The notes below the pieces were generated by a model. That model did no database searches. It was not told the DNA's origin and worked only from the letters and a program-made list of their open reading frames with translations. Both the position numbers and the translations under genes were made by a program. Shown in pieces: positions 714 to 55,589 of a stretch of 64,000 bases of DNA (positions are counted from its first letter, which is position 1; each line of letters opens with the position of its first letter). Origin of the DNA: Polytrichum commune (Eukaryota; Streptophyta; Polytrichopsida; Polytrichales; Polytrichaceae); NCBI GenBank assembly GCA_950295325.1, contig OX485805.1, forward strand, positions 36,195,501-36,259,500. Reading direction: 5' to 3'.

Positions 714-836
714 TAGCCCCACAATGGACTTAGTAAATATCTCTCTATTGACTCCATACTGCAAGCTGCAAGGTAAACTATGTCAAGAAATAGTTGTACC
801 ATTTGAAGCCATCTCCAATCCATAGAGAGGGGGAAT

Positions 837-1347
837 GAGGGCCACTTCACACAAGAGCCAAAAGCCGTGACCATGAAATTGTGAGAGCCCAAAAGAAAGT
901 GTCCAAAGGCCGTCCCGACAAACCTCCAAAATCATGTAGTGTGGTCACGGGCCGTCAAGTGTAGTGTGAAGTCATAGGTGACTGGGCCCTCAACCAAATG
1001 CTATTTCAATGAAATTCTATCTATGCGGGTCCTTGCACATGATAAAATAGAATATATCAATGGTTGTGAGCATTTGGAGTCCCTAGCTTGGAATATATCA
1101 ATGGTTTGTGTTAGGCCTACCTTCAAGAGGTGGTTTTTGAAAATAATCCAAGTGATCATGAAACATGATCCATTTGATGCCATGTAGGAGTTCATGTAGA
1201 CTTTACATCCATCTTGCATTCACTTACTCCGTTGGTTCCTCAAGCGTAGTGTGAAGTGAACTTGGACCAGCTCCGCCCTTTCCACCGATGAGAATGCTTG
1301 AAGTGTAATGGTCACAGGCTCTCAATCTCATGTGTGAAGTGACCCTT
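837..1347 (+). mobile_element. R2: about 510-bp terminal-inverted-repeat element, copy 1
   Basis: The left end GGCCACTTCACACAAGAG and the right end CTCATGTGTGAAGTGACC are inverted repeats. The whole body is repeated in the opposite orientation at 54728-55231, including an internal stretch with CAAGATGGATGTAAAG. Short overlapping ORFs inside are not conserved in frame between the copies. It looks like a non-autonomous DNA transposon; the superfamily is not determined. Confidence 0.75.
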
Positions 1348-1481
1348 ATTGTAAACGAGTGTACCTCTCATCCATCCAACATTAAAACGCTTGAAGTGTA
1401 GTGGTCATAGGCTCTCAGTCTCGTGTGTGAAGTGACCCTTATTATATACGAATGTACCTCTCATCCATCCAACATTAAAAC
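1296..1481 (+). repeat. Tandem duplication, 2 x 93 bp
   Basis: Units 1296-1388 and 1389-1481 are near identical. Each contains the right terminus of R2 (CATGTGTGAAGTGACC, or CGTGTGTGAAGTGACC in unit 2) fused to the left terminus of R3 (GTACCTCTCATCCATCC). The duplication therefore copied a junction between two transposon ends. Confidence 0.75.
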
Positions 1482-2319: not shown

Positions 2320-3462
2320 TTAGACTCCAAGCACTTGCGAAGCGAGCCGGACGCCTTCCAGACGGGCTGCAATCTTCTGCATTGCCACGTCGCGTGCGAA
2401 GTCCGGCGACCCGTGCTTCGGCTTCACGTCGCGGCTGAAAGGAGAGAATCCGCAGTCATCTGTCGCTCCAAGGCGCTCCAAGGGGATATACTTCGCAGCA
2501 AGCAAAAGCTCGTCACGGACGTGCTCAGCAGTCTCCACTTCCGGAGTGAGAGGGTTGATGACTCCAATGAAGCACACTTGCGGCACTCCGTTAGCGTCGG
2601 CCCGGCTGTGCTGGCCGCACAGCTTGTACACGCTCTCGCGATCCTCCTCGCTGGCGCACTGGATGAGGAAGTAGCCAGCGTTCATCTTGAACATGTGTTC
2701 CAGCAGCAGCGAGTACGGGACGTCCTTGCTGTGCACAGAGTCGCAGTCACCGCCGGGGCACGTGTGGATGCCAATGTTGCGCCTCTCGTCAACTGAGAAT
2801 CGATCTAGAACGCGGTTGTTTAAGTCGATAAACTCTTGCAGCATGTTCTTGCCTGTCCATGGGTTGCGCGAGTCGTTCTTGTTCGCCAGCCGGCCTTCAG
2901 TGAAGTCAATAGACACACGCACAGCGCCGGAGGCGAAGCACTGACGAATGTCTTTCTCGACCTCGTTGCACACGTCGTCCAAGAACTGCTCCCGCGGGTA
3001 GCCGGGGACCTCCTTGTCGAGCGGGTACAACAACATCATCATCGACGGTGAGATGACAGCCATTTTTAAAGGATGTGTTGCAACTTTCTTGTTCTTTTCG
3101 AGAAACTCGGATGCATAAGTCTTATACCTGAACGGGCCGCCTGTGAGGCGTGGCAATTGCCGGTGATGGCCATCATCGAATATGGCAAAGAACTGCCCAT
3201 CGCCAGCTAGATTTTCCACCAATCCGGTCCCCGCTAGAGTATCCGTGATGGAGTAGGTTGCGAAGCTCGATTTTTGTTGCTCGCCGTCGGTGACAATTGG
3301 CTCGCCTGTTGCCTCCAACCGCTTGATGGAGTCCACAGCCGCTTCCTCCTGCAAGGATTGAAGCTGCGACCAGGTTATCTCCCCTTTGTCGTAGTTGGCA
3401 TACGCCTCTTGCAGCTTCATCGGCCTCGGTAGAGAGCCGACGAGCTCGGTGGGGATCGGCAT
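2320..3462 (-). CDS. MetE/UROD-type cobalamin-independent methionine synthase-like protein (380 aa, intronless)
   Basis: The 380-residue protein resembles the C-terminal, zinc-binding half of cobalamin-independent methionine synthase (MetE; the short COG0620-type form), which transfers a methyl group to a thiol such as homocysteine. Visible features are an N-terminal TELVGSLPRP segment, a zinc-site-like HTC motif (H233, C235) in GIHTCPGGDC, and DDCGFSPF with C337, matching the third metal cysteine of the family. Plant MetE is normally about 765 aa, so this is a single-domain paralogue rather than canonical methionine synthase. I chose the ATG at 3462; the frame is open upstream to about 3483 but has no earlier ATG. 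No targeting peptide is obvious. The gene has no intron and is clearly richer in GC than the flanks, unlike the other genes here, which hints at acquisition by transfer or retroposition. The exact substrate is not known. Confidence 0.85.
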   Translation of the reverse strand: MPIPTELVGSLPRPMKLQEAYANYDKGEITWSQLQSLQEEAAVDSIKRLEATGEPIVTDGEQQKSSFATYSITDTLAGTGLVENLAGDGQFFAIFDDGHHRQLPRLTGGPFRYKTYASEFLEKNKKVATHPLKMAVISPSMMMLLYPLDKEVPGYPREQFLDDVCNEVEKDIRQCFASGAVRVSIDFTEGRLANKNDSRNPWTGKNMLQEFIDLNNRVLDRFSVDERRNIGIHTCPGGDCDSVHSKDVPYSLLLEHMFKMNAGYFLIQCASEEDRESVYKLCGQHSRADANGVPQVCFIGVINPLTPEVETAEHVRDELLLAAKYIPLERLGATDDCGFSPFSRDVKPKHGSPDFARDVAMQKIAARLEGVRLASQVLGV

Positions 3463-3476
3463 TTCTCTTGCACTAC

Positions 3477-3711
3477 CGATCAAACACGGTGCTCTAATTC
3501 AACTTATACGGTCAAATCAAACACAGAGTGCTCTTCAGCTTATACGATCTAATCAAACACAGAGTGCTCTTCAACTTGAACGATCAACCAAAGATAGACT
3601 TGCTCTCCAACTGAATAGATTGCCCTTCGACTTCTACAATCGATTCATTGACAGTGCTCATCTTCAACTGAACAGAATGCTAGACTTCAACTTATACGAT
3701 CAAATTATCAG
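3477..3711. repeat. Degenerate minisatellite, unit about 36 bp
   Basis: Units of about 36 bp built around ACGATCAAATCAAACACA and GAGTGCTCTTCAACTT are repeated head to tail. The first three are well conserved and later ones are truncated to about 24-36 bp. The array starts only 15 bp upstream of the MetE-like start codon, so it occupies the leader or promoter of that minus-strand gene. Read on the plus strand it gives a 12-residue repeating peptide, which I regard as incidental. Confidence 0.75.
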
Positions 3712-5812
3712 GTTGGCCACCCTCTCTTGATCGCCAATGTCAAAGGGACCCTGAGGCCAGAGTAGGACTCTCTAATTTTTATGTAACCAGCCACGGCCGA
3801 TTTTGTTTCAAACAATTTTTTCCTGCAACAATGACGCACAATAATCGCCACCGTGAGTCACGATTCCGGGCACTCGATATCATTTCTTTCTGCCATCCAT
3901 CATTCGACAGGCTAGCATTATCCTCTGGCTGTCACTAACTATCCACTTGTGTGTTTTTTTTCTTTTTTTTTCCCTTTGGTTTTTGGAATCCAATGGTGTT
4001 GACTGGCCTTGAGATGCTCCACCAGTCTCTCCAAGTTTTCTCATTACTATTGGCTTTTGAGGGTTTTTATTTCTTAGGGCTTAAGATGTCATTGCATGGT
4101 CTCCATGACAATTTATAATCCCTCTAGAATATGAAAAGCTAGTTTTCACTTGGTCTATGAGATTGAAGTCATATTCACAAAACTATATGTATATTTTGGC
4201 GACCTATGGTGAGAATGGGTAGTGACACCGATGTAGACAAAATCAATCGACCGTCAATGACAACATGTTGAGTTGACAGTTTGGAGATGGCCCAGGACAT
4301 TGGTTCATATGGACCATACCAAAATGGATCCAAACTAGTTCATTACAATAATAAAAATATGATGATTACAAATGGCTTAGATGATTAATTATATACACAC
4401 ACATCATGTATTTAAGTCTAGATCATTTATACAAGCCAAAATCTCCCTAAATTTCTTTCTCATACATGTATTGGTCCATCGTTAAGATAACTCCCGACAC
4501 ACACCATTGTACATGTCATTCTTCATTCAAAGTGATTGTGTCACTGCTGCTACGAGTGTATATAATATCACACACATGATGCCCATAATTTATCAAAGTG
4601 CTCCCCACGTACCACTCCAAAAGCAGTAGGCATCAACTTGCACTCATATAGAGTCTTTTTTCCAAGCAATTATCTCTTCAAAAAGGGGTGAAAAAGGGCC
4701 CATACATACATCGATCTTTACTTATCACTTGTGGTGTACTCCATCTTCTGGGCGTGATCAAGTGGATTGGATTCCTCGAGTTCGTTTTTATTTCACATAC
4801 TTCCGACCTTTCTTTGACAAACCGAAACAAATCAAAATTCCATTTAAACTAAGGTAAAATATGGATTTCTGGAGTTTGTTGAAAAAAGGTTGGTGGGTAT
4901 GGCAAGCCACTATTACAGTAATTTGATTTGCACAGAATGCCAAGAAAAGACTACAAAAAGGTAGAAGGAAATCAATTCTCATTAGCTAATTTAACTTCTT
5001 TGGCAAGGTGTTTGCTTTGAGTGAATGACCTACAATGGGATGAACGAGCATATTCTATCTTCTACCATCAGAGTCTAGATATATGAATAATATAATTCTT
5101 GTAGTAGGTCTGCATTTGGTATGGTGGTTAGTATCTTGTCTTGTATATATTTTCTATTTGAATGGAAAATGTTGGTGTAGTGTTGATGTGTGATGAAAGT
5201 GGGGAACTTCATAGCTTCAAAGCTGACAACTTTAAAACTCACAAATGGGTTGTTAGATTCCTGCAAGTGGAATGATCTCTGAGTTCAAACCCGAGTTCCC
5301 TTTTCAAAGCTCGTAGTTTCCACTATCTCACAACTTCAGTACTCGCCCTTTCAAAACTTCACAGCTTCGAAACTCACAAATTAATGGGGTGTTAGATCCA
5401 AATCTTCCGGATTTGCTCTTCTGGCCAAGAATTCAAGACCCACTCAAAGCGATGCAAAGGAGTACATGATGAACCACACTCTCAACGTGTGGGTTGCAAT
5501 GAAGAGAGACAAAGCAAGATCTACAAGCAAGCGACAAGAACAAAAGATGGAAAGATCCGTGACACCAAAGCACGCATGTTACTCATATTGTTCATAAATA
5601 CAGCGATGTTCTCAACACTACCCTCCAATGTCATAAAAAATGTCCATCAATACTCCCCACATCAAAGCCTACCGTACTACAATCAATGCTCATCAATATG
5701 TTCATCTCACACTCTTTCAAAAGCTCTCCACAAAAACCCTCATCATCGCTACATATGTCCCTCACTTCTGGATATCTAACCCACCAGTCCATCTAAAGAT
5801 CCTCGCAATCAT
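3712..5812. other. Intergenic DNA without a recognised gene
   Basis: AT-rich sequence with poly-T runs (3953-3975) and short chance ORFs only. No protein family, RNA gene or well-bounded repeat recognised. From about 5600 the plus strand becomes rich in C and A and poor in G, leading into the repeats and LINE fragment that follow. Confidence 0.5.
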
Positions 5813-6420
5813 CTCATCCAAACCCTCACTTGAGCTTTGCCAACGCCACCACTGCGATGGGCAACCCCCAGAAGTGACCTACAATCCTCCACCCAAACTT
5901 TTGACCCGAAGACACCATCAATACTCTCACCTTAGATCTAACCCAGGTTACACAAAGGTTCACCAGTATGGCAACCTCAAACCTCTTCAAGAGATTCTCA
6001 CAATTATAACATCATAACCCTCACTTAAGCTTGGGCACCACACTAGTGTGGTGCCCACCTCCCAAAAGTGATTCGAAATCCTCCACCAAAACTCCGGTTT
6101 TGAAGATGTCATCAACACTTTCAACTCAAATCTGACCACGATCCTAGAAATGCTCATCAATATGCCAATCCCAAACCCCTTCAAGATATCCCCACAAAAG
6201 CTCTCTAACCTCTCTACCTCTCATACTTAAACATCTACCTCTCATACCAATCGACCTAATCCACCAATCCACACAACCCTCTCATCAAAACCTTCACTCA
6301 AGTTGCACCAACACCAACACTCATATGTGCTCCAAATACAACCCAAAATCCTTCGCCAAAACTCCTTATCCAAGGATATCATCAGTCAATCCCAACAACC
6401 AACAAGGTGAGCCACCTTAT
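5813..6420 (+). repeat. Diverged tandem repeats, about 3 units, next to a LINE fragment
   Basis: Three units starting near 5813, 6010 and 6285 share the order AACCCTCACTTGAGCTTTG-like, then TCCTCCACCAAAACT-like, then a CATCAATACTCTCA-like segment. Unit lengths are about 197, 275 and 135 bp. They share the G-poor composition of the endonuclease fragment at 6639, so they may be the repeated 5' part of the same LINE. That link is inference. Confidence 0.5.
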
Positions 6421-6638
6421 AGCCACAACCACCTATGAATACATTATTAATCAACAAATCACTTATGAAAGAAAGATCACATCACAACAACTCCAACAAA
6501 ACCTCCCCAATTATCCCAAGTCAATTGACCTATGAATTCATTAAATGCAACTACCCTATAACCGGATTCACACCAAAACCAAACATTATCATGCCCACAC
6601 ATCCACTACCACAAACACAACCCACAAAAACCTCCACC

Positions 6639-7235
6639 ATGCATACTCACATTATTACATGGAACACATGGCATATCAACTCTAGTCTTCAAGACATTAT
6701 GGAACTAATAGAAAACATACAAATTGAACGCACAATTATTCTACTACAAGAAACCAAACTCTTAAAACACAAATCTACCACCTATATAGACAATAGATTC
6801 ACGGAATACAAAATCCTTCGTAATCACACAAATAACACAAATCTACGAGGAAACCCACAATTCACAACATTTGAACCCCCAAGAGGCGGCATCCTTGCCA
6901 TAATCCACATAAACATATACTCTACTAGAAATATTACCAAAATCCCCACACCAAAGAACATATCACCGTATTCACTAGCCTTTGAAATATCTAACAAACC
7001 ACTTACACCACTACTCATGATGAACCTATACATGCCCTGACATTCCACTAGCCTCCCACTCATCCCAATAGTCAAAGAGCAAATCAAAATCCTTACCAAA
7101 AACCACCCTACACACAAAGTGATATTAGCAAGGGACTTCGATAAAGACATCCTCCTAGTTGGCCGCATACACAATGACATTCCCCAAATCCCTAACCAGA
7201 GAACAAAGACTAGGCACAATTCATGCAAGGCCTAG
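6639..7235 (+). pseudogene. LINE apurinic-type endonuclease fragment (decayed)
   Basis: The conceptual translation from 6639 has, in order, the motifs of a non-LTR retrotransposon endonuclease: ITWNTWHIN (TWN-type start), ILLQETKL (catalytic QET), a RGGILAI segment, LYMP (the usual YAP), and ARDFDKDI in place of the usual GDFN. A TGA at 7038-7040 interrupts the frame and the same frame then continues to a TAG at 7233. No reverse transcriptase follows. The open frame extends upstream to about 6435. The sequence is strongly G-poor on this strand. A plain EEP-family hydrolase gene is less likely because of the stop and the missing metal-site residues. Confidence 0.65.
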
Positions 7236-10565: not shown

Positions 10566-13500
10566 ATGATGGCAGTGTGTGCTTGCGGGACGGGACTTTT
10601 CCAGCTCCTGCCCAAGGCCACGGCCTTGTCCACCTCGCTTGCCTCGCAGGTAACAACTTATGGTGACAAGTACCAAACCCCTGCCATAACCCCTCCCAGC
10701 CATTGCAATTCCGGGAATTGATTAGTGGCGAATAGGTTTTAGTGGTTGGGGTTTCTGCATTACCCCCATTTTCTTTCTACAAGTTGTATGAGTTTCTGGT
10801 AGAGACTGTATATATGGGCAATGGGTGAAGAACGGGAGCTGAGTTTTGCAGATTTGGGGTTTCTGTGCCTCGTACTCTGGACTGAGCATTCACATCTTTT
10901 GGAATTACATATATGTGAGGTTTTTTGAAAAAATACAGAGTTGCGTTTGCTTATGTTTAGTCCCTGAATTGGGATCGAGAAGTTGAATTTGTATGGAAAA
11001 ATGGTTGTGATTTGCAAATTGGTGAAAATTTGTTTGTGAAAATTTGGAGTTTGTGATGGAGAGTGAATGTATGGGCAGGGGTGAAGAACCGGGAAGTGAG
11101 TCGCAGAGTTTGAGTTTCTGTGCCTCGTACTGGAGTTTGAGCATTCACATTTCTGTAGCTACATGTATGCGAGGTGTTTCGAAGAAAGAGGTTATGTGTG
11201 ATGACGTTCAAACCCTGGATTGGGTTCTAGAAGTTGAATTTTCATGGCAGAATTGTGGTGGTTGGGAAATTTGCGAAGCTGAGGGGGTCTGCTTGTGCTG
11301 AGAATGTTTGGAAGTTTGATTTCGTTTATTTACCTTTTGTGATATTGCAGTTGAGACCAGAGAGGGCATCGCAGTGTACAGTCAGCTTGCCACCTTTTAA
11401 ATGTGATTGCAACTCAGGCCATGGCGGGAGCAAGGGGGTGTTGGTGCGGTCCTCATCATTAGAGAAGTTTGGAAAGAGGAGTAGTTGTAGACGTGGGAGA
11501 GACAGATTAGACAAGAATTTTGGCAGCTTAGACAGGAAGCCGATTGTTGAAGTGCAGGCGCGGGTGCAAGACACTGTAGAGCATGAGACGTATGATAGGG
11601 AAAGTGGGTTCGAACATAAGTTTCATAGGAAGGATCCAACTCGACGACAAAAAAATAGTGGAGGAAAGTGCGAGCGGCGGAGGCGAGTGCAAGTGGTAAC
11701 CAACAATGGGTTTGTGGATCTAGAAGAGCAGTTAGGCATTGCCAAAAAGGATACCAAGGAGGGGAGTCTGCGGTTGAAGCTCAGCAGTCGCAGGAACGGA
11801 AACAAAGTGCAGAAAGATGAAGAAGGAAGGCTGTATTTTGAGTACGAGTTCAATGGAGCAGATGTTGATGATGCTCCCAATCTTGACAGCAGCTCTTTCT
11901 ACTCTGCCGAGGAATTGCAAAGCCGACAAGAAGGCGATGCTGTTGCGCAAGCCGCCTCCCTTTTGGACATTGGAGGCCTTCTGGCTTCAGATAGAGGTGC
12001 GTGTATGATTTTGATGAAGGTAAAACAGGATGGGAATCTCCAAGTTCATATATCATCAACACTGATTTGCACATTGATACAATCACATCAACCTGCAACA
12101 TTGAATCAATGCTACCAAAAAAACATACATAGAGTTGCGATTCTAATCTTTGATTTCCATATTTTAGAGTTGCAAGACTTAAAAAGGGGTTGAATTACAA
12201 GTCGAAGTGATGTTGATTGAATCATTAGGTTAGTGTTGATGGGTTTGCACTGAAAAATAATAAACCCTGAAGGTTATGTATGCATCCTAAACCAATATTA
12301 AACACCGGTCACTTAACTTTAGAGATGCTGCAGGCATGCATGTTTGCACCATGTAATTACTGAGGGGATTGATTACGTTGAGGAACACTTGTGTCATGCA
12401 GATGGACTATCTTTGTTTTTCACTAAAAGTAGATGATCCTGGTAGCATGAAATTATCACTTGTTGGCAACCCTATTGCGAGTGGGGTGTGTCTGAACTGG
12501 ATATGTCAATACCACTGGGTCTTATTCAAGCAATGGCATATAAGTAGGCTTGCAGGGCACAGTGGTTCCATTTTTATTTTGTACATCAAAATTTTAACTC
12601 GAATATTTTCACTTGGTTATAACCTAGATTTATTGGTACCAAGTTTATCCAAATTGACAAGGTTAGAAAGTGTCGGTCTTTGATCTAGGTGGCTCGTGGT
12701 CACAAAAGGAGGTTCTGCCCTCATGTGTCAACGTGCTTAATGACCAATATTTAGAAACCATTGCCATTCATTTTTGTGTTGGCTTATAAGGTTGAGGACT
12801 CTGTGCGTGTGTATAGCGTCTTGCAGTTATTATAAATTTTTAGTCTTGTAATAAGTCCTCATACAGTAGCTGAGTGACTCTTCAGGATGATTTGCCTCAA
12901 GACCAATAGGTTTTGCAGAACATTTTAGGGAGATGTTTTATTCAACTAAGGTACTGTACCTATTGTAGACAATATGGCGAGTTTGGGTACTTAAGAGTGA
13001 TTTAATTTCTATGCTGATTATCTTGTTGGATTAGCAATTCAAAGTGGATTTTCAAAGCCATGCAACTAAATTTTTCTAATCATGACCCATTGTGGTCACA
13101 AACGGGCATCCATTTGTGCCACCCATCTTGGTCATGCCCCACCTTTTGCATGGCATAAAGTGCTTCTTGAATAATCTATCATGATCTTGTGTAACACCTC
13201 ATGATTGTGAGAATGTGGGGCCATAAGTTACATGCCACACATTCTTCCAATGCCTTGTACATAGTTCATTGAAGTGTAAAATTGGCAAACTCATGGCCTT
13301 ACCTATGTTGGAGCCTCCACTCACTTATTTATGTCACGGTGTGCCACACAGTGGGCTTGCCATGTGTGCACATAGGTCATGGTATACCTCCACTTGGTTT
13401 ATATTATTTTAACACATGCTTTGTGTTCTACTATACCCTTGAATTCAGGTGTATACAATAGGTCATCAACTGAGATAGGTGCATTGACCCTTTCCAACTT

Positions 13501-16500
13501 ACTTACAAAGAAATGTGGTTTATCACTGAGATGTTGTTATTGTTGGCGACAGAGATTGGAGAGAGCCCAAGGGAAGTACTATCTCATCCGGTGGAATATG
13601 AATCGGAAGAAGGATTGGGTGATGAGGAGGGTTTGAGTGATGAAGAAGCAGATACTTGGATTGACGTGGGATTGCAGCCAACGAAAGGTCTCTTAGACTC
13701 TCCAGGGGGTCAAAGGGTTGCTGAGCTAGTGGGTGCATGGGATGGATTAGCAGGAAGACTCCCACCCGATTTTGGGTCCAGTGGCAGCTCCTCTCTCTTG
13801 TTAGCTGCTTTGAAGCTTACTGTCAGTACACTCCAGCATGCCCCCCCTGTTGAAGATGGGCGCAACCCCCTGTCTCTCGCACTCTCTGTTGCATATATTC
13901 TTGCTGATCTTCGGGTGAGATATTCTTTGTATGTTGAAATTCAACTGTATAATGTCTAGACCTTCAAAGGTTTGTAGTTGGCACGTTTCAGTTTCTAGGA
14001 TCTTCTTTATGCATCAGAGGGATCTTTCTGAGGAGATTTATGAGAGATGCTCAACTACAAGTACCTGACTAAGGTGAGCAGGCCTAATTTTGTTACTTAT
14101 CTTAATCGGACACCCATATCTAAGTGATGGGTGGTTGGGGGCAGAGCTAAGAACAAACACCAGAAAGACATGTGTTCAAAAGAAATTGGACTATGTGCTA
14201 AAAATATGTTAATCATTCTAGGCTCAATAGCCAAACATAATTGGGGGGACCTATACATGGCCTTCTTATGATTCACTGTCAATGGACTTTGATAATGCCT
14301 AACAACTTGTGCATACAAAAATCTCAACTTGCGCATCTGAGCAGTATAACGTAGCAAACAGCAAAAAGTAACCAAATAAGGCCCATCTACATTATAGTTA
14401 CTATTTGAAAATTTGTTCCAAAGATATGCATGCATATATATATATATCCAGTTTGCATGTACATGGTGGGTCCTTTTGAACATTGGCTGGGGGGTTCTTA
14501 ATTTGGACAGAACCTGTCAGGAGGGTGAGATAGCAGAGAAGTTGTAAGACAAGAAATGTAGGACTTGTGCCAAGTGGCAGCTGGCCTCTTTGTGTTACTC
14601 ATTGTTGTAGTAGCTGTGCTTGGCATAAATCCTTAACAGATGGATGGGGAGGTTATTGCTACCGGTCTCCTTCGCGAGGTTGTTGAACATGGCAACCTGA
14701 AAATTGGTGCAGTGGAAGATGTTATGGGAAAGGGAGTGGGGCGTCTTTTGCACGACTGTTCTCGTGTCAAACACTTGCCGTCTCACTTAGACACTCTCGA
14801 TGATGCATCTGCAAAGGCTGTTCGACAATTTTGTCTTGCATTTCATGATGTACGGGCGGTTGTGGTGGAGGTGGCTGCTCGGTTAGATATAATGCGCCAC
14901 ATTCAAATGCTTCCACGCTACAGGCAACAGATACTGGCACTAGAAACTATGCAAATTTATGCACCCCTTGCTCACGCGATGGGAACTGGCACCATGAGTC
15001 TGGAACTGGAAGACCTTGCATTCTGGGTACTTTTCCCTGACTCGTATGCGTATATTGGAAGCTGGCTAAAACGACATTGGTCTGATGGCGATAATGTCGT
15101 GACAGAGTGTCGAGATCGCCTTCAGGTTATCTTAGAAGATGATTTAGAGCTCCAATCACTGGTTGAAGCAGTGAAGATCACTGGGAGGTGTAAGAGCCGG
15201 TATAGCACAATGAAGAAATTGCTCAGGGATGGAAGACAACCAGAAGAGGTTTTTGATGTCCTGGGACTTCGGGTGGTTCTGACCCCTATAAAAGGGGTTG
15301 ACAATTTAGAAAAGGAAAGAGGTGCAGAGGCATGTTACAGGGCTATGCATCTAGCAACCAGTTTGTGGAAAGAGGTTCCAGGTAGGCTCAAGGATTATAT
15401 TGCAAGGCCCAAGAAGAATGGATATGAAAGTCTGCATTTAGCAGTGAACCTGGGAAATCGTGGAAATTGGTCACCTCCTATGGAGCTTCAGATTCGCACT
15501 GCGGCTATGGATGCGATGGCAGAGGGTGGTCTTGCTTCACATTCTTTGTATAAAGGCGGACTTACTGATCCTGAACAGGTAGACCTTCCCTTGGTGTTTA
15601 AGTTTCTTGGGTGGATCAACATGAACTCCCAAGAAACTTAAACACCAAGTTTAAATTAGAACACTTTAATGTACTACATGAAGTTTCAAACCCCGGAAAA
15701 AACTTGGAATGATTTGAACACTTGTGTGTTAAGTGTGTTGCTGGCTGATTTTGCCAGCTCTCTGTTTGCTTATCTTGTAGTTAAAACCCCTCACTTGTAC
15801 TGTTTTTAAAATGTCAGGCTGGATATCTTAAAGCAATAATGCAAGCAGCAGCGGATGTGGCAACAACACGGTATTCCGACTTGTCTAGCAGTACAGTGGA
15901 GGTCATTGAAGAGAGCGAAAGGAAGATCAATAATGATTATATGTTTACTTTATTTGATAAAAATCAGGATGGTGTGATAAGTGTGGATGAATTCAAGGAA
16001 GTTATAGGGGAGCTTGGGGCTGATGGTGAAGATGCTCATGAGCTGATGAAGCTTGTAGACTCCAACTTTGATGGGTCTGTTAGTGTGGAGGAGTTCCAAG
16101 ATTTCCGTCGACAGGTTTGTCACCTCTTTGTTTGTTGCATCACTCTTGTGAACTGCATGCATCTGTGCTATTTTGGTCATTTTTTAATCTTTTCGAAATT
16201 ATTAAGGGATTAGTACACATAAAGTAGGTCAATACATTAGAGTTAAATGTAAAGTAAAGGGGTAAATCAAGGAGGATTTGGGGAGCATATAGGTAGATTC
16301 CCCCATTTTGAGTATAACTGGAAAGTCTTTGAGGGCTTCTTTTAGTTTTAGGTGCCGTCATGTTGCATCTTTATATAACTAAGAATCTTCTCATTTTCTT
16401 TGCCACCTATATGCACATGCCTTATCTAGGCACTCTTTGCTCCTCTCACCACTTGTGTACTCCCCAAATAACATGAAACCCAAAAAAGGATTTCTAAAAG

Positions 16501-19500
16501 TTCTCTAAAAATTTGTAACCCTTGGATTAGAGCAAAAGGAATTCACATCCCTAATTTTTTTTCCAGGTCACTGACACGACTGTTGGAAGTGGCAAATATG
16601 GGAGATTCCTTCAATATTGTGGTTTTGATCCCCACTTTTGTTGACTTCACAGTTAACTCTACTGAGTTGAATCTGAGCAACAAAGTTTGTCTGCAGGTTA
16701 AAATTTTTGAGAACCTCGCTGGGGTGGATAGGCAGTTCACTACCCAACTTGATCAAAAGCTCCTATCAGCAGCAACGGATAATGATGTAGGGGTTAGTAC
16801 AAATACACTGGAAGATGCTAGCACAACTGCTCTGGATAGTCCAAATTTGCCAACAAATGACCAAAATCCAACATTGAAAAGGAACACGTTAGAAAAACTT
16901 GTGGGGGCAAGTCTCCTTGGAGAGTCTAAGGATCAAAATGCGATGACTGTCGAAGAGGTTGAATATCCTTCTGAAAACTTTGAGGAACAGATGTTGATTG
17001 AAAGGGTTAGAAATTCAGAGAGGGGCTTAACAAGTAGTAGCCGTAGTGTTCAAAGTGTGGCTAAGTTAGCAAAGCCATCAAAACCTACGCATGCATCTGC
17101 AGATAGAAGTAGAGTGTTAGATCTAGTGGACAAAGTTGATACACTAGATCTACAAAGAGATGCCTTGCAATCTTCTTCAGCTCTTAAGGAGGTTGAGGAG
17201 AAAAAGGATACTCAGCAGTTAATTTATGAAGAGAAAGACAGTATTGATTTGGTTGTACACGAAGAGCTAGTTAATGTCAGGAGGCAGATTGCTGTGGGTG
17301 ATTTAGCAACTGCACGAAGAAGCTTGAGAAAGGTAAAGCTCACAGCCACTTTTCGCTTTCCCTTCAATTGCTTCTGTTGCTTTCATCCTGTCTTGAGCGG
17401 TTGAGAGGTTGTGAATTTTAGTTCCTGTTGAAGCTGTTGAAGCTGGTATATCCAAGATGATCAATTATATGGCATGGAATCTCCCACTTTGGAAATCAAT
17501 TATATGAACTAGTGGCCAATTTCTGGTGTGACAGCTTACGAAGATACATCCAAACAGCCCCAAGGTTATGATTCACTTCGCACAATTAGAAAGAAAAGAA
17601 GGTACTTTATTTGGAATCTTGAGGCGAGTTTTGTTCTATGCTTTATCCAAGTGGTCAACATGTATTGCTCAATGCATAGCGTTTTAAATAGTTGGTACCA
17701 TTTCTTGTACATAGTTCCAATGCTGCCCATGAGGTTCAACAAGTTTGGGCTAAAACAAATAAGGGTTTAATGTGTTTAGTAATTACAGTCTTGAAGTGAT
17801 AAAATATCTTGAAATTAATTCTTTTTATCATGCATAAGTTATAAGTTACTAAGTTGCTACTGAGAAGTAAGTTGCAACTACATCAATACACTTCATTGTT
17901 TTCACTGTCAACATCTGTCAAAACTTGAACCTGTTTGCACCAAAACATAATTTACCTGGTAAATCTAGCAATTTTGTAGGCACCTATTGTTTGTGGTTTG
18001 AGGATTGAGGTACCAATGTCCCAATCTTCATGTTCCTTAATAATCCATAGTTACACTCTAGTTTGGTTTGTCAAAGACTGATATGAAGTTCCGGTTGTGA
18101 TGGCTTGCAGGTGATGCAGTTGCTGCTGGAGCACTTTATGAAAGAGCAATTAAAGCTTTCAAAGATGATGGGGATTATGGGTTAGATTATGTGAGAGCAT
18201 TGCAAGGGTGGGGCTCTTTAGAAGCTCAAACCCGCAATTCCACCAAAGCACGCTATCTTTATGTGGAGTCTGTGCGAACTGCACAAATGGTAATAGTTTT
18301 GGTATTTACTTTTTTATGAGAAATTAAGGATTTGTTTAGTGTAAGATGTGCGTTTTTAAGTGTGTTTCATTGTCAAAATCATTATGTTCACTTGAGATTC
18401 TCAGCTAATCTGAAACTCTTAGATCTCACTTATGGATCATGCACTCTACACCTTTTATATCAAGTAGTGGACCCAAAATTTGTACTAATCTCTACTCCAT
18501 GGTATCTTTTACTCCTAGAAATATTATGCCATTTGGGAGTTAATGTGGACCTCACTATCTTATGTACTTGGTGTAGTAAGGGAAAATATCTCAAATAATA
18601 ATAATTTTTTCTTACCACAACTTTGCAGGGAGAGAAGAATGGAGTGAAAGAGCTTATAGGAGCAGGTGTTTATGGACTCCATGGGTGGGCTTTGCTTGAA
18701 CAAAAATTAGGAAACTGGAGCAAAGCTAGGGATCTCTTAGAAAGAGCTGCAAATATTCAACCTGGAAATGCAGTTATCCACCAGACTCGAGCTCTTCTTG
18801 AATCACGTGCACACAATTATGCAGCTGCTCGGTATCACTTCAAACTAGCTGTGGATTTCGCACCGAAAGATGTCAAGTGCTGGCAGGTGAGCATAGCACA
18901 CATTGTTCTTGTTGTTGGGGCCTTGTTTACTGGCCATAGCATTCTTATGTGGTGTAGTGGGTGGTCACCCTAACTAAGCATCTTTGAGAGTATACACTTG
19001 ATGAGATTCTTTTTGGCAAGGGCTTTAAGTTGAATCTTGGTAGATGGAAGAAGGTTTTGTCTGAAGATAAGTAACAATGAGGTGTCAATTAGTGAGAGCT
19101 TGTCACTTGACTATGCTTAACATTCATGCATGTAACCAAGGACCTTGATCCTCTTGAAGATATAATTGAAAGAGGTCGTCCTTACACATGCTTAACCCCC
19201 AAGCATACAAGAGGCTCGATCCAGGCCTCTCCTTGCACAAGACCAAACATGTATTTGAGCTACATACTTTCACTATTGGCTATTTGTTGTTGAAAGTGGC
19301 CCTATCTAAAATTAAGTCATTCTTCAAGTGCATTATTCAAATCGGTTGAATAGCTTAATGTTGTTGAATATTTGGTTTTAAATACACAACTTGGTTGCCC
19401 CTTGGATTCAAATTGATCATCAGTGTCACATATATAGAAAATAGATAAATTCTAGACTTGGTGAGTCTCTTAGAAATTGTGTATATAGGTCGTACATTGA

Positions 19501-21603
19501 GCCCCCGGGTCCTTTAAGGGTAAGAATGCTATGGCAGTTGCAATATTAACCAGAACAGTCAGGTGATAAACCAGCATAAGTGGCATGCTTTCTGGTGACT
19601 TCACTCTAATGCTGATTTTTTTTCTGGACTCCTGAAGATAAGAGTCAAGGATGTGAATATTTTGGGTTCGCTTAGATTACGCACTTGCATAACCCCTTTT
19701 TTGCTTCATGACCTCCATCTTGAACGCCACTGGTGATGTAGTGTCCTACTGACGAGATGTGTTTGGACACCCAGGCATGGGCTTTGTTTGAGGCCAGTCA
19801 GGGCAAGCCAGTGAAAATGAGGCAGCTTTTTGGGAAAGCACTTGAAGTTGAGCCAAACAACATACACTCCTTGCAGGTACACCTCATACCACTTTTGGGG
19901 ATTCTGAAAAAAATAGGATGTACTTCATATTAAATTTCTGGCAATGGTCAATTATAAAATTGTATTTTTTTGGCTGTGTTGTTGATCAAGTTATACTGTA
20001 TTGTGCCAGGCTTGGGCACATCAAGAGTCCTTGTTAGCATCAAAGTCATCCATAGATCGAGCTCGCAAGCTATATCAGCTATGTGTAGAAGTTAATCCTG
20101 AAAGTGTGCATTCTTGGCAGGTATTTGTCTTCACACCTCATATCTGTAAATTTTTCAAGTGTTAATTCCAGTATCACAAGATGTGAGACTTTCGAATGTA
20201 CACAGAAAGAAACACTTGAGTTTGTGCATTAAGAATGTTACTATAGTAGCCTGTGGACTGCTGTTATTGAGGTATTTGGACTAATTTATTATACTAATTA
20301 GATACGTGGCACCAACTCATTTGCAGGCCTGGGCCATAATGGAACAAGATGCCGGAAATCTGCCAGGTGCACGTGTGCTTTTCGAAAGAGGTCTTGGCAC
20401 AAATCCAAGAAATGTACCATGCCTTCAGGTGGTTATTCTTCTTTTCACATGGATTTTTTTGTATTCTTTATGTGTCTTTCAACTTGGTTTGCTACTAGGT
20501 TGCTTAATAGGGAGGCTAGTATTTCCCAACACACTTGCACATGTAGCTTACATATTAAGAATCTCAATAGCAAGTCTGATATTTTAGATGTGTTGGTCGT
20601 CTTGTTTACAGGCTTATGCACATATGGAACGGCTTGATGGTAATTTGGAAGTTGCAAAAAAGTTGTTGGTCATTGGACTTTCCTATGAAGCAGAGAATCC
20701 TGCAATTCTGATGGTTAGGCTCATACTCCATTTATACTTGTTATGTTATCATGAATAGAGTTTGCAAATTCAGTTCTCGAGTAATAATGCTTGTGACTTA
20801 TTCCAGGATCCAAAATTTGTCAGTTTCTACTGGTCAGGGTTTTATGCTGAGAATGGAGTAATCCTCTAATTCAACAAGACTTTTGGTCGGGAGTTGGTTG
20901 TTATGCATACAACACCTTGCATGTTGGGTAAGTATTTGGTGCATGTTCGAGTGTAGTGTGTAGGTTGGAATGGAGAACATTCTATATTGTTTCAATGAGG
21001 CTCAAAATCCTCTTGGCATGCCAAGCAGTGCTAAAATGAGTTTGGCCCTCAATGAATCAGAATAGGTTGCTCTTCATTTAAATTCAAACACTGCCTCCGA
21101 GCATGCACAACAAGTGGAAGAAATTATTGATATTGTATGCAAAACAACCATTAGAAAATCTAGGGAATCTACTCCCGACCAAAAGTCCTGTTGGGTTAAA
21201 GGATAAGTTTAATACCTTATGTAGATCAAGCAGTACTGATTAAAGGCATTCTTCTTGTTGGTTGTTACTATCATTATCATTATTACAGTTACTACTATTC
21301 TTTTCTTTTCATTGTTGCATCTGAAAGTAGTAACGGTGTTTTGTGCAGGAAATGGGGCTTGTGGAAGAGATGCTGGGTAACAAGGAAGTAGCTGGAGAGT
21401 TTTTTAAAATGGCTGGCATTGCAGACAAACAAAAAAGCCGTGTAAAGCGAAAGATATTTGAGTCTCGCAAAGCTGCTCCAAAATTCAGGCTTCCAAAGTC
21501 TGCGGATGGTAATGGAACTAAATCTTTTGTAAAAGCTGAGAACACAAAAAGGTGTGCAGCTCATAAACCTAATGATATCTGGAGCTCGAAGGAGGCATCT
21601 TAG
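10566..21603 (+). CDS. CRSH: CRSH (Ca2+-activated RelA/SpoT homologue) fused to a C-terminal HAT/TPR repeat domain, 1379 aa
   Basis: Exons: 10566-10649, 11351-11996, 13553-13914, 14640-15578, 15818-16114, 16697-17332, 17535-17601, 18111-18289, 18629-18886, 19775-19876, 20010-20120, 20327-20428, 20612-20713, 21349-21603; all introns are GT..AG and the phases agree. CRSH proteins make (p)ppGpp from GTP and ATP in plastids when Ca2+ binds. Residues 1-28 look like the start of a transit peptide. The HD hydrolase site is lost (GLLREVVE, R376-E377). Synthetase motifs are GRCKSRYS (546-553), DVLGLRVVL (570-578), DYIARPKKNGYESLH (616-630) and MELQIRT (645-651). Canonical EF-hand loops lie at 724-735 and 758-769. 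Known plant CRSH proteins end soon afterwards; here about seven HAT/TPR units follow (about 965-1330), mostly one per phase-0 exon (AWALFE, AWAHQE, AWAIME, AYAHME), of the kind seen in HCF107/Mbb1. Two separate transcripts remain possible. Confidence 0.85.
10813..11270 (+). repeat. Diverged direct duplication inside CRSH intron 1
   Basis: ATGGGCAATGGGTGAAGAAC at 10814 is matched by ATGGGCAGGGGTGAAGAACC at 11071. Similarity continues through TTTCTGTGCCTCGTACT, GAGCATTCACAT and AGAAGTTGAATTT. Unit spacing is about 257 bp, so most of the 701-bp intron is a two-unit tandem duplication. Confidence 0.7.
14095..14320 (+). mobile_element. R6 dispersed element in CRSH intron 3
   Basis: Begins near GGACACCCATATCTAAGTG and contains GAACAAACACC, AAAGACATGTGTTCAAAAG and TTGGGGGGACCT. 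This order is shared with copies at 45598 and 23030 and, inverted, at 55590 and 61530. R6 is related to R5 in its first 60-100 bp but differs downstream. Confidence 0.55.
15590..15649 (+). repeat. Perfect 22-bp stem inverted repeat in CRSH intron 4
   Basis: Arms 15590-15611 (CTTGGTGTTTAAG...) and 15628-15649 are exact reverse complements with a 16-nt loop, 11 bp inside the intron from the donor at 15579. It could hide or expose the splice donor in the RNA, but there is no functional evidence. Confidence 0.7.
20861..21204 (+). mobile_element. R4: 343-bp inverted-repeat element in the last CRSH intron
   Basis: The ends are inverted repeats: ATCC..., AACAAGACTTTTGGTCGGGAG on the left and CTCCCGACCAAAAGTCCTGTT...GGAT on the right. 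A second copy of the same length sits in ATP11 intron 3 (39323-39665). Internal landmarks TGCCTCCGAGCATGC and TCTTGGCATGCCAA are shared. Non-coding, MITE-like. Confidence 0.75.
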
Positions 21604-46616: not shown

Positions 46617-49113
46617 CTAAACGTTTTTGAAAGCAAGATGCGCTTTGACAGGCCGATGGTCAGAAGTCTTCAAAGAGCTGATAGCATCATAACCCTGCAA
46701 CTCAACCTTGACGGTCTTCACCTTGTAGAGGATTCTGTCTGTCCAAGATGGTACTCTCTCCTGCACAATGGATAGAGTTCAGGAACCAGGAACACATGAT
46801 CACCTTCATCTGTGGACCTCTGAGTATTTCAAAATTTCTACAATATTCACTCTCAAGCACGTTATTTGGCATTTGAAGAGGGTGGGGAACATACCTTAGA
46901 GCTGGTGTCGTAGTCGTCTGTTCCAACATCATACTTGTATGTTGGTGGGAATAACAGTGGGCCTTCTTGAAAGCCTTTGAACACATGACCCTTTCGAAGT
47001 GCTCTAGACAACTGATCATTGGCCCACAACTGCCAAACAGAACACAAAGCATCTTTTATGAATCAGCACATATATGTACATGATTCGTTCAATAGACATA
47101 CGATATTATCCAATTCGAGGCTGACTTGGGTGAATTAACTAGATCGAATTTATGTACACAAACAACATAAATGACGTCAGGGGACAAATGTTTACCTCTT
47201 GCATTTTGCTCTTGATCATGCTTATTACTGAGCATCGTGGCAATTCAAGACGATAGTTGAGGTCTCCAAGCCAGACTACCATGTCAGAATCTTCAACAAG
47301 GTTGGATGCCACCCCCAGAACTTTCCTGTCTATCTCATCTGCTACTGCTGTCGGTTGCACACAAGACCATGTTGAAGTTGACCTTGCAAATACATTGCGA
47401 CATATGCGTGAATACTGCGCATTACGCGTCTCCAAGTTGCATTCATGAGCTGCATACAGAAGTATAGATGTTAACACATCATGCAATATTCCCACATTCG
47501 TACAATAAGATTCATGCATCCTCCTGCAAAATCTGCACAACTCAAATATGGTGGAATATCATACAACAGATGAAGGATATCATGTGGAACAGCTCCAGTT
47601 AGGAGAAAACTCACGAGCTAAGTGACAAGTGATGAAGAGCAACGACTTCTCTTTGAAACGCAACCTGACTGCTGCAGCGCCCTTCTGAGCACCCATATAA
47701 CCACTGAAGGGTTTTTCCCAGATTCTATCCACCTTGGCACCTAAATCCAACAAGCACTCACCATCAGATTTAGGGCTCAATTTTAACCAATGAGAAAACC
47801 AGAAAACATGTCAAGGATCGAATCATTTTGATTCAAATATAGGATGCTATTGATGTACATAACTGAAGATGAAACCCTTTCATATGAGGGAGCAAACATA
47901 CACGTCAAGTGGGTAAATTATCTTGCTGTGACAACATACCTGAAATGAAGGGTTTGAGAGACCTTTTAGCAAATATGAAGAGTTGGAGCGACATCAACAC
48001 AGCCGACTCAATCAAACTGCATCATCAGGACCGCAACTAACTGTCAGCAAGCTGCTTTCATGCTTTTACAAAACGTTCCATTGAGGGATACAAAAGACGT
48101 AAATTTACAATCTGGTCTCGCATTTCTAACATTTCAGTAAATTGTCTATGAGGCATACTTGACGAGAACACCAAATTCACATGCAGTGCACTGCACAAAC
48201 CATATTGAAAATACCAGAGTTGTAGGCAAGAATTGCAAAAGGTTGGGTTTATGAAGGAAAGAGAGGTCGCACCAATATTTAACCCCCAAAATCTCAGAGA
48301 GAGAACTCTTGAAATCAACGTTAGGTGCTTCTTGAAGACCAACAATGAAGAAATCATGGTCCCCAGATACATCAAGGAGATCGGCGAAGTTGCTGCCAGG
48401 TACCTGCAAGAAAGAACAAAAACAGAAGATCACGTATGAGCGGATGGTAATGAAATACCACAGGAATTCTCCCGCATTCATTTCGTTCGCGTGTGTTTCC
48501 TTCACATTTGAATGCTCTTCAATATAGCAGCGGCTGACTGCCATTACAATTAAATATAGATATGGTAGTGCAGGGTCTGGACATTTCAAAGTTGACCTGT
48601 TTCTAGAGTAAATTCATCCTCACACAAGTATTCTAGGTACTCTCTAGGTTTCCTCACCTTGCCATTCATGTTCCACGTGACAACGTATATGTTGAGATCA
48701 GTAAAAGAACTTCGAATGCCCTCTCGAGATTTGTCCTTCACAGAACTAACACCCTTAACTCGAGGGGTTTTAGTTTCCTTCGACTCTCCAGCAACAAATT
48801 CTGGTTGTTGTTCAGGAGCAACTGCAGCAGCCTTCGTTACTTTCTTTTCACCTCCAATCTTTTCTACAAGCTTCTGTTCGATCACTTTCAAGTCCGCTGG
48901 TAACGGGAAACCAGGATCAAAAATAGTGTTGTAGAGGGTCTTGTGGCAGTAAAAAGCGGCGTTTGTTGCTGAAGCATTTTTGCTAAAGGCCAAGAGGTTG
49001 CTGTTCTCGCAATCTAACAAACTCAGAACTACCTTCTGGCCATACTTCGCAATCCATGTGTTTCGATCGTGGGGATAAACGCAACCTTCTATTCCTCCGA
49101 CGTCGTTTCCCAT
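46617..49113 (-). CDS. Inositol polyphosphate 5-phosphatase (type II, IP5P11-like), 440 aa
   Basis: The enzyme removes the 5-phosphate from phosphoinositides or inositol phosphates and acts in membrane signalling. Exons on the minus strand: 49113-48658, 48403-48273, 48016-47940, 47740-47615, 47449-47196, 47029-46895 and 46760-46617. All junctions are GT..AG and they give 440 codons plus TAG. Catalytic motifs are TWNMNG (146-151), GLQE (174-177), CHLAPHE (260-266), WLGDLNYR (323-330), PPTYK (376-380), PSWTDRIL (397-404, T where C is usual) and SDHRPV (426-431). Residues 1-138 are an unrecognised N-terminal region, low in complexity from about 85 onward. No C2 or LRR region is seen. The ATG at 49113 is the first in frame after an in-frame stop. 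The leader holds short upstream ATGs near 49270 and 49197. Placement with the short plant IP5P11 group is inference. Confidence 0.9.
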
Positions 49114-50480
49114 TTTTATCTGATACTTTACAAGAGGCCGGTGTACGCAAACTTCATGTGCCACTCTTGGTATCTCACCACGATTTTATCTACCATGGTA
49201 GCTTGTTTGATTGTGATCTTCCGGTACTCTTAGAAATGTCTCTCGTCCTCCTGAGGACAACCTGCGACATCCCTGAAACAACGAGATAATATCTTCAGTA
49301 ACAAATTCAGACTAATTCAACAACGCCCGTGTAATGTGAGTCCTAGAGAGCGCAATTCTGGACCAACGCAAAGTCCACGGGAGACAAGGAGTGGACATTG
49401 GAGGTCACTGATCAGAAATCCAAGAATTTTGGACTGAAGACCGAGAGAATCGGCGACCTATCATGTGATCCTGATCAGTAACCTATCATTGCAGGCAATT
49501 TGGTAAGGATGTGTAGGCCAAGAGTATTATGTGTGACAATGCAGTTGACTGCTGGTTCTTTTGCGTAAACAACTTAAAAATCCATGTAGATATTGCATGA
49601 AATTTTCTGCAAAGTGTAACTGATGCACAGAGAAACTACTTCAGGTGCTTCTGAAGTATTTATAGTTCATCGAGATTAGACCTCCATTTTCATTACATAG
49701 AGAGCACTCGAGGTGCATGACTTGTACAATCAAGCTGTTGAGAATTTTCAATGGTACCTCTCCAGGAGGAAAGCAACACCGCGACGAAACTGTAAGCAAA
49801 CTACTACACGACCTTGATTGCCTCTCGGAGACTCTACACTTCAGCTCTTCAAGTACAGACCATGTCCAACCCGCGTTAAAGAAAACAACTACCAGCCTAA
49901 AAAGGCAGAAAATCACACCCGACAAAAAAAATACAGACACTCCACTTGCAAAAGATTTCAAAGCAAGAACGGACCGAGGCCAGTCCAGGTACAAGAATCG
50001 AACTCTCTCACTTAGGCGTCGCAAGAAAGCACAGAGACGCGAGAACCGAACAGTTCGCCACAACAAACAACGACAAGAAAATTCAAAAATCGGAAGTCGG
50101 CAAGAAACGCGCGCAATTGACACCTACTAAAGCCACGGCAAAGAAGCTACTCTTGTAAACGACAGATAATAGGAGGATGCATTATAGAGACTCACAACTC
50201 CCGGGATCCACAGCAGGCTGGCCATTGTTTGTCGCAGGGAGGCAGAGGAGGCGCGAGAATGCAACAACCATCGGTTAGCGAAGAAGCAGCCCCCGCCTGC
50301 GAAGAGTTTGAAGTGCAAACCGAAGACCGAGAGATTCGGCGACGTAAAGTGCATCCGAAAGAGATGGAGGTTGAGGTGAACGGAATTAAAGAGCGAGGGG
50401 AGCGGGAGGAGATTGCAGTAGAATGCGGCGACAGACAAAGGATGAACGCGAGAAGAGAAGAGCCCGGGGGTTTTTAAGTT
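49114..50480 (-). promoter_or_regulatory. 5' leader, probable leader intron and promoter of the 5-phosphatase gene
   Basis: On the minus strand an acceptor-like TTGTTTCAG ends near 49275. GC-rich purine/pyrimidine-biased sequence extends to about 50480, and candidate GTGAGT donors lie near 50195. An upstream ATG near 50228 opens a short peptide that cannot be joined in frame to the enzyme with the splice sites I see. I therefore treat this span as an untranslated leader with an intron. The 137- and 160-codon ORFs inside are on opposite strands of biased sequence and look non-coding. Confidence 0.45.
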
Positions 50481-54540: not shown

Positions 54541-54727
54541 CACGTGTCGTAATCTGGGTGGGTGGATGCCACTTGGTCACATTTTAAGGTAGATTGGTCC
54601 CTGGGACCCCGAGCTTATAAATCTAGGTCAATCATTTATGCCATAGAGTACCCTAGTCTCATAGAAATAGAAATAGCGTAGGGTTTTTTTTATTTTCAAA
54701 GGATAATGGAGTTGCCTAGGCTATGTT
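54541..54727 (+). promoter_or_regulatory. Promoter-like segment (G-box, TATA box, ATG) ending at an R2 element
   Basis: CACGTG is at 54541-54546, TATAAAT at 54616-54622 and an ATG at 54706. The short frame from that ATG runs straight into the terminus of the R2 copy at 54728 and hits a stop there. It may be the 5' end of a gene cut by the insertion, but nothing recognisable resumes after the element. Confidence 0.3.
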
Positions 54728-55231
54728 AGGGCCCACCTCACAGACAAGACTGAGAGCCCGTGACCATTGCGCTTCAAGCACTCTCATTGGTGGGTAAAGG
54801 CGGAGCCGGTCCAAGTTCACTTCACACTATGCTTGAGGGACCAATGGAGTATGTGAATGCAAGATGGATGTAAAGTCTACGTGGATTCCTACATGGCATC
54901 AGATGGATCATGTTTCATGGTCACTCTGACTAATTTCAAAAACCACCTCTTGGAGGTAGGTCTAACACAAAGCTGGGAGACCGTGGTAGTCCGAATGCTC
55001 ACAACCGTTGATTTATTCTATTTTATCATGTGTGAGGATCCGCATGAATAGAAACTCATTGAAATAGCAACTGGTTGAGGGTTTGGTCACACATGACTTC
55101 ACACTACACTTCAGGGTCTATAACCACACTACATGATTTTGGAGATGTCTTGGGAGGGCCTTTGGACACTTCCTTTTGGGCTCTCATAACTTCATGGTCA
55201 CGGCTCTTGACTCATGTGTGAAGTGGCCCTT
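54728..55231 (-). mobile_element. R2 element, inverted copy 2
   Basis: Reverse complement of the element at 837-1347, bounded by GGGCCCACCTCACAGAC and GTGTGAAGTGGCCCTTA. It matches internally through CAAGATGGATGTAAAG and GGATCATGTTTCATGG. The two R2 copies are the most widely separated matching pair in the window. Confidence 0.75.
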
Positions 55232-55589
55232 ATATGTATATATTGTAGTAGCATCATAGTGGTAGTGGACATTATTGTGAAATGGTTGTTCTTGTTGGTT
55301 TGGATGAGAACATCTACACTCAACAAGTGTCTTAAATGGTTACTTTGTTCCAACTACACGGATTATCGTAATTAGTGTATGTTACTATTCGGAGTTACAC
55401 AATGCTATAACTATGTAACAAGAATGTAACACTTTACCAAGAAAAGACATTTATGTTTTATGATGTCCGAACACCATATTGAACTTTCGTTAATAATAAT
55501 TGAACTCATGAATAGGACGTTACTGCACTGCATAACTGTGCATAGTAACACACACTAATTGGGATACTTAATTTAGTACAAGATGGTCA

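Follow-up and report, generated by a model that had tools for sequence, protein, structure and literature searches.

A putative CRSH-type ppGpp synthetase fused to a HAT/TPR repeat array and nested within a HAT-repeat gene of Polytrichum commune

Gene model and domain content of the locus

The window analyzed here is a stretch of 64,000 nucleotides of the Polytrichum commune genome (GCA_950295325.1, contig OX485805.1, here C3, positions 36195501-36259500), and the genome scanned for relatives was the 407.8-Mb assembly of 64 contigs to which it belongs. Between positions 10566 and 21603 of the forward strand we predict a gene of 14 exons, joined in frame through 13 introns that all follow the GT-AG rule, with a coding length of 4140 nt (1379 amino acids and a stop codon). 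We read it as one gene whose predicted product combines a CRSH-type guanosine tetraphosphate (ppGpp) synthetase, EF-hands and a HAT/TPR repeat array in a single fused protein, and we give this reading a probability of about 0.8. Exons of a flagellar radial-spoke protein (PF04712, best 139 bits) are present in the genome, which speaks against a flowering plant and suggests a bryophyte or another free-sporing plant. The in-frame set of 1379 codons had been proposed in an initial annotation and held when we checked the exon boundaries. In an earlier version of the model, of 1376 amino acids, exon 7 began at acceptor 17544; we set it at 17535 because this site is aligned with the sister gene described below and is the better-scoring of the two (4.8 against −3.4 bits in leave-one-out scoring). 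Of the three possible frames, the gene's own scored highest in all but two of the 14 exons; exons 1 and 7, the shortest, were the exceptions (exon 7 scored at 58 nt). An Rfam scan of the window at the gathering threshold gave no match.

Pfam searches, with positions referring to the 1376-residue version, placed HD_4 at residues 344-480 (94.5 bits), RelA_SpoT at 546-670 (100.1 bits) and the EF-hands at 717-772 (EF-hand_7 at 718-772, 36.2 bits for a cut-off of 30), while TPR/HAT families begin at residue 974, among them TPR_14 (56.9 bits) and HAT_PRP39_N (37.2 bits), both above cut-off. No TGS or ACT domain was among the 19 Pfam families listed for the fusion protein at E 0.001. When aligned to solved Rel structures, the hydrolase motifs are altered (HD to RE, ADR to AAR) and the synthetase blocks GRxK, KDYIAxPKxNGYxSLH and ExQIRT are intact; the ppGpp hydrolase is predicted to be dead. 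EF-hand loops are recognized by acidic residues at defined positions, and both loops carry them at positions 1, 5 and 12; by analogy, the synthetase may be regulated by calcium. The N-terminal 60 residues include 17 serines, threonines or alanines and two acidic residues, and the protein is probably targeted to the plastid. The genome holds at least four loci with a RelA_SpoT match (six exon matches), this one included. The other three, read by eye, are two RSH2/3-like loci and one RSH1-like locus, and a search of the genome with the repeat array gave no match at any of them. Only the fusion, among the four loci found, holds the RelA_SpoT domain within one exon, and among these loci it appears to be the genome's only CRSH.

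By our own parsing the array has about 10 repeats, of which the first, third and last are irregular. A phmmer search with the C-terminal 600 residues of the 1376-residue version returned 42 PDB sequences, with engineered TPR and crooked-neck HAT proteins on top. The array search of the genome gave 17 exon-level matches, which comprise the fusion gene itself, a close copy on contig C5 and more distant relatives on C1 and elsewhere on C5. Viral contig scans yielded no confirmed relative. A scan of bacterial and archaeal genomes with 232 residues of the array, a procedure that detects close relatives only, found three bacterial TPR proteins with best segments of 36-41% identity, and we take these matches as repeat resemblance and not as orthology. 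One of them is a TPR protein of the cyanobacterium Halomicronema sp. (5001-5990 of its stretch), whose best segment is 36% identical to the array; this could again reflect a likeness between repeats, or perhaps give a clue to the origin of the array.

The CRSH part and the repeat protein meet in exon 6 (Table 1). As first annotated, this exon is a single open stretch, with 212 codons free of stops (chance in intron-like sequence about 3e-6), and the first HAT repeat is divided between it and exon 7. The CRSH tail (exon 6a) and the HAT linker (exon 6b) thereby share one open exon with no stop between them. We scored codon against intron composition after training on the remaining exons and on all introns except 16115-16696. 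In frame, 16697-16942 reached 0.31 bits per codon, against −0.11 for the open stretch upstream (16472-16696), and none of 3967 overlapping intron windows scored as high. In bins of 60 nt the score was positive from 16712-16771 through the rest of exon 6, save for 16832-16891 at −0.02, and the coding signal sets in no more than about 60 nt from the acceptor. The acceptor itself scored 9.3 bits in leave-one-out scoring (median of 23 acceptors, 7.2), and there is no in-frame ATG inside exon 6 before 16943. The junction lies within 16763-16820, most simply at 16790/16791. Its left edge is given by similarity to a sequence that we take to be Arabidopsis CRSH, which reaches codon 22 of the exon (16762) and serves as a lead only; on the right, the alignment with the sister gene starts at 16791, is weak at first and becomes clear from STTALDSP, at about 16820. 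AlphaFold2, run on exon 6 alone with no alignment, gave a mean predicted local distance difference test score (pLDDT) of 65.4, with a low-confidence helix at residues 2-28, values below 50 for nearly all of residues 30-82, and confident helices toward the C-terminus. The linker that joins the CRSH part to the repeats is about 160 residues long and probably partly disordered.

The sister gene and the nested layout

The close copy on C5 (C5:11403336-11410419) is a gene of 11 exons with 792 codons, a stop codon and no internal stop. Its exons match exons 1, 2, 6b and 7-14 of the fusion with identical phases, and it has neither exons 3-5 nor the 31 codons that open exon 6, so that the HD, synthetase and EF-hand regions are missing from it. 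Pfam listed 18 families for the sister protein, all of TPR/HAT types (counting Suf, a HAT family) and none of them an HD, RelA_SpoT or EF-hand family; the HAT family proper (PF02184) scored 25.0 bits (cut-off 21) in the sister and was not on the list for the fusion. The second intron of the sister gene, of 306 nt, holds no CRSH remnant detectable with tblastn at E 5. A PDB search with the sister N-terminus gave one chance-level match (E 0.78).

When the two proteins are aligned, 239 of 330 residues are identical between the start of exon 8 and the KRKIFESRKAAPK motif in exon 14. Exons 1-2 have 108 identical residues in 214, and exons 6b-7 have 67 in 175. By three methods, the first of these regions gave 0.18 nonsynonymous substitutions per site (dN) and 1.0-1.4 synonymous substitutions per site (dS), a dN/dS of about 0.12-0.17, and exons 1-2 gave a dN of 0.38-0.41, a dS of 1.1-1.6 and a dN/dS of 0.25-0.36; for exons 6b-7 dS was 1.4-2.5, one of the three methods giving no value. 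Judged by a dS above 1, the duplication is old, and with a low dN/dS between them, both copies look constrained and are probably functional.

Because HAT-family exons with counterparts in the sister lie both before and after the CRSH exons, the exon comparison places the CRSH part as nested inside a HAT-repeat gene. The fusion of CRSH to repeats that was originally annotated therefore stands as a single in-frame gene, but not as a plain C-terminal addition, as exons 1-2 also come from the repeat-protein family. The start of the CRSH part within exon 3 was placed with the sequence presumed to be Arabidopsis CRSH and is likewise a lead only.

Table 1. Exons of the predicted fusion gene and other features of the window (positions in the window)
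Feature	Position	Strand	Content
Exon 1	10566..10649	+	residues 1-28; GT donor; resembles sister-gene exon 1; own frame not best-scoring
Exon 2	11351..11996	+	to residue 244, ends in phase 1; motif VQVVTNNGFVDLEEQLGI; common to the CRSH-less sister gene
Exon 3	13553..13914	+	acidic stretch, then CRSH/HD region begins; no sister-gene counterpart
Exon 4	14640..15578	+	most of the degenerate HD and entire RelA/SpoT synthetase domain; no sister-gene counterpart
Exon 5	15818..16114	+	two EF-hands (DKNQDGVISVDE, DSNFDGSVSVEE); no sister-gene counterpart
Exon 6a	16697..16790	+	31 codons; CRSH tail (VKIFENLAGVDRQFTTQLDQKL...); no sister-gene counterpart
Exon 6b	16791..17332	+	linker, then repeat 1 (first half); aligns with sister-gene exon 3
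Exon 7	17535..17601	+	acceptor 17535 rather than 17544
Exon 8	18111..18289	+	TPR/HAT repeats
Exon 9	18629..18886	+	TPR/HAT repeats
Exon 10	19775..19876	+	single 34-residue repeat; 102 nt, phase 0
Exon 11	20010..20120	+	single 37-residue repeat; 111 nt, phase 0
Exon 12	20327..20428	+	single 34-residue repeat; 102 nt, phase 0
Exon 13	20612..20713	+	single 34-residue repeat; 102 nt, phase 0
Exon 14	21349..21603	+	last repeat, conserved KRKIFESRKAAPK motif, tail, stop codon
Dispersed repeat, two inverted copies	836..1354 and 54725..55233		about 500 bp
Methionine synthase-like frame	2320..3498	-	uninterrupted, 392 codons
Exo_endo_phos frame	6423..7040	+	open frame
Probable inositol polyphosphate 5-phosphatase exons	47139..49185	-	Exo_endo_phos2 in 47139-47558

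Elsewhere in the window, the methionine synthase-like frame resembles cobalamin-independent methionine synthase-like proteins of bacteria (NCBIfam PRK06520 at 61.4 bits, well under cut-off; Pfam Meth_synt_2, 22.6 bits for a cut-off of 21), and microbial transfer of this frame would be a guess. The Exo_endo_phos match (15.6 bits) is under cut-off, and the frame is perhaps part of an element of the long interspersed nuclear element type. Exo_endo_phos2 scored 34.3 bits in the probable phosphatase, the remainder of which was read by eye and has no Pfam matches. At least four further copies of the dispersed repeat, at 78-86% identity, lie in a 114-kb segment around the sister gene. When the window's frames of at least 40 residues were searched against that segment for synteny between the two copies (tblastn, E 1e-6), the gene itself and apparent dispersed repeats were matched, and the methionine synthase-like and phosphatase frames were not.

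History of the locus and alternative readings

How the nested layout arose can be read in two directions. We lean, on parsimony alone, toward an insertion of the CRSH exons at the phase-1 intron of a HAT-only gene. The reverse history, in which the fusion is ancestral, the C5 copy lost exons 3-6a and the CRSH of flowering plants lost its HAT parts, is a serious contender that we hold to be somewhat improbable: RSH4 proteins with C-terminal TPRs have been reported from green algae in the portion of the source compared (PMC6881373), and a paralogue dS above 1 leaves time for loss. Two arguments, both weak, speak against this history: it requires flowering-plant losses at both ends, and the short C5 intron shows no trace of a CRSH.

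A different objection concerns the transcript. The locus might be nested or alternatively spliced, exon 2 being joined to an acceptor at 16791 to encode a HAT-only protein of 815 residues, either beside the fusion or together with a separate CRSH. This join would be in frame and would mirror the layout of the sister gene, but 22 AG sites of exon 6 share the phase of 16791, so that agreement in phase says little; with 1.1 bits the site scores below 21 of the 23 acceptors of both genes (two real ones score lower), and a separate CRSH would meet no stop in exon 6. We consider it unlikely. Two tandem genes, a CRSH ending past the EF-hands and a HAT gene with its own start, are very unlikely given the nesting of the CRSH part within a HAT-repeat gene. 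In their favor, exon 5 read past its donor runs into a stop at 16211-16213, and the open frame of exon 6 extends back to 16472 and contains an ATG at 16598. Against them, the region just before the exon-6 acceptor has the score of intron and not of coding sequence, the coding signal starts near that acceptor, CRSH tail and HAT linker follow one another in exon 6 with no stop between them, and a start near 16598 would forfeit the conserved N-terminus encoded by HAT exons 1-2, which lie 5′ of the CRSH.

Several points weigh against the fused gene and against its history as we have drawn them. The coding signal of 16697-16942 is good, not extreme: scores of at least 0.31 bits per codon also occurred in 26 of 9222 windows of 21700-45000 (both strands), and when the segment was shuffled 2000 times by mononucleotide, 14 of the shuffles matched or exceeded this value. 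The fused gene model was drawn from genomic sequence alone, and plastid import, the calcium response and the binding partner of the fusion are what we infer from it. The direction and spread of the event were judged from one plant genome, and that CRSH stands alone in flowering plants is taken from the literature and from a sequence we presume to be correct. Algal reports of RSH4 with TPRs, in the passages compared (PMC6881373), could also point to an old fusion, and loss in the sister gene would then be favored.

In the fused protein that we favor, an RSH4/CRSH-family ppGpp synthetase would be flanked by the N-terminal region of a HAT/TPR protein on one side and by its repeat array on the other. 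Calcium bound to the two EF-hands would turn on the synthetase, as is described for the CRSH of Arabidopsis and rice, and the N-terminal region together with the solenoid of about 10 repeats may place the enzyme on a partner, such as a plastid RNA or a protein associated with ribosomes or transcription. The synthesis of ppGpp would then take place at, or be coupled to, this partner. It is plausible that the fusion links calcium and ppGpp signaling to a scaffold that binds RNA or protein. A more specific version is highly speculative: a calcium-switched synthetase inserted in a plastid RNA-binding HAT protein might make the alarmone at one particular transcript of the chloroplast or at a ribosome, with the HAT-only sister, or perhaps a splice form, competing for the target. 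Whether ppGpp acts locally in plants, and what directs CRSH within the plastid, are open questions as far as we know. If the fused reading is true, calcium sensing, ppGpp synthesis and a solenoid are found in one protein with an enzyme-less sister as a natural control, and the question becomes directly testable.

Comparison with known systems

From exon 3 on, the fusion is 50% identical over 518 residues to the sequence that we take to be Arabidopsis CRSH, a value to be used as a lead only. The fusion is like the CRSH/RSH4 proteins of land plants in its degraded HD domain, its conserved synthetase, the two EF-hands after it and the absence of a TGS or ACT match. In the passages compared, an altered HD with a kept synthetase is the pattern of RSH4/CRSH (PMC6881373; PMC10107265), calcium-related activation is described for the Arabidopsis and rice enzymes (PMC5633626; PMC10107265), and known RSH4/CRSH proteins have no N-terminal extension beyond the transit peptide (PMC10107265). 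The fusion is unlike the latter in having about 280-290 residues before the CRSH part and HAT-protein sequence on both sides of it. Some green algae are reported to have RSH4 with C-terminal TPR domains (Ito et al., 2017, cited by Avilan et al., 2019, PMC6881373, in the passages compared), and the fusion is like these proteins, compared by description only, in having TPR-type repeats C-terminal to the RSH4 core. The initial annotation had held that CRSH proteins end soon after the EF-hands; given the algal report, which we know from those passages, the class is not unprecedented. It also saw a likeness to HCF107/Mbb1, which stands for the HAT/TPR solenoid and probably fails for orthology.

Against a segment that we take to be HCF107, the array is 32% identical over 309 residues, while a HAT gene on C1 (C1:45024728-45027234) is 68% identical over 103; as leads only, these values make the C1 gene the better HCF107/MBB1 orthologue candidate and do not support that role for the array. 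The titles and abstract openings of the literature on bryophytes and ferns did not contain this architecture, and the RSH4/CRSH passages compared make no mention of a nested layout or of a HAT-only sister. Chloroplast HAT factors are the array's best functional analogues: like MBB1, MAC1 and NAC2, which the passages compared describe as RNA-stabilizing factors with 9-12 repeats (PMC8635915), the fusion has a HAT/TPR solenoid, here of about 10 repeats. As far as these sources reach, the CRSH-TPR class of architecture has a precedent in green algae, and the nested layout with its HAT-only sister is new.

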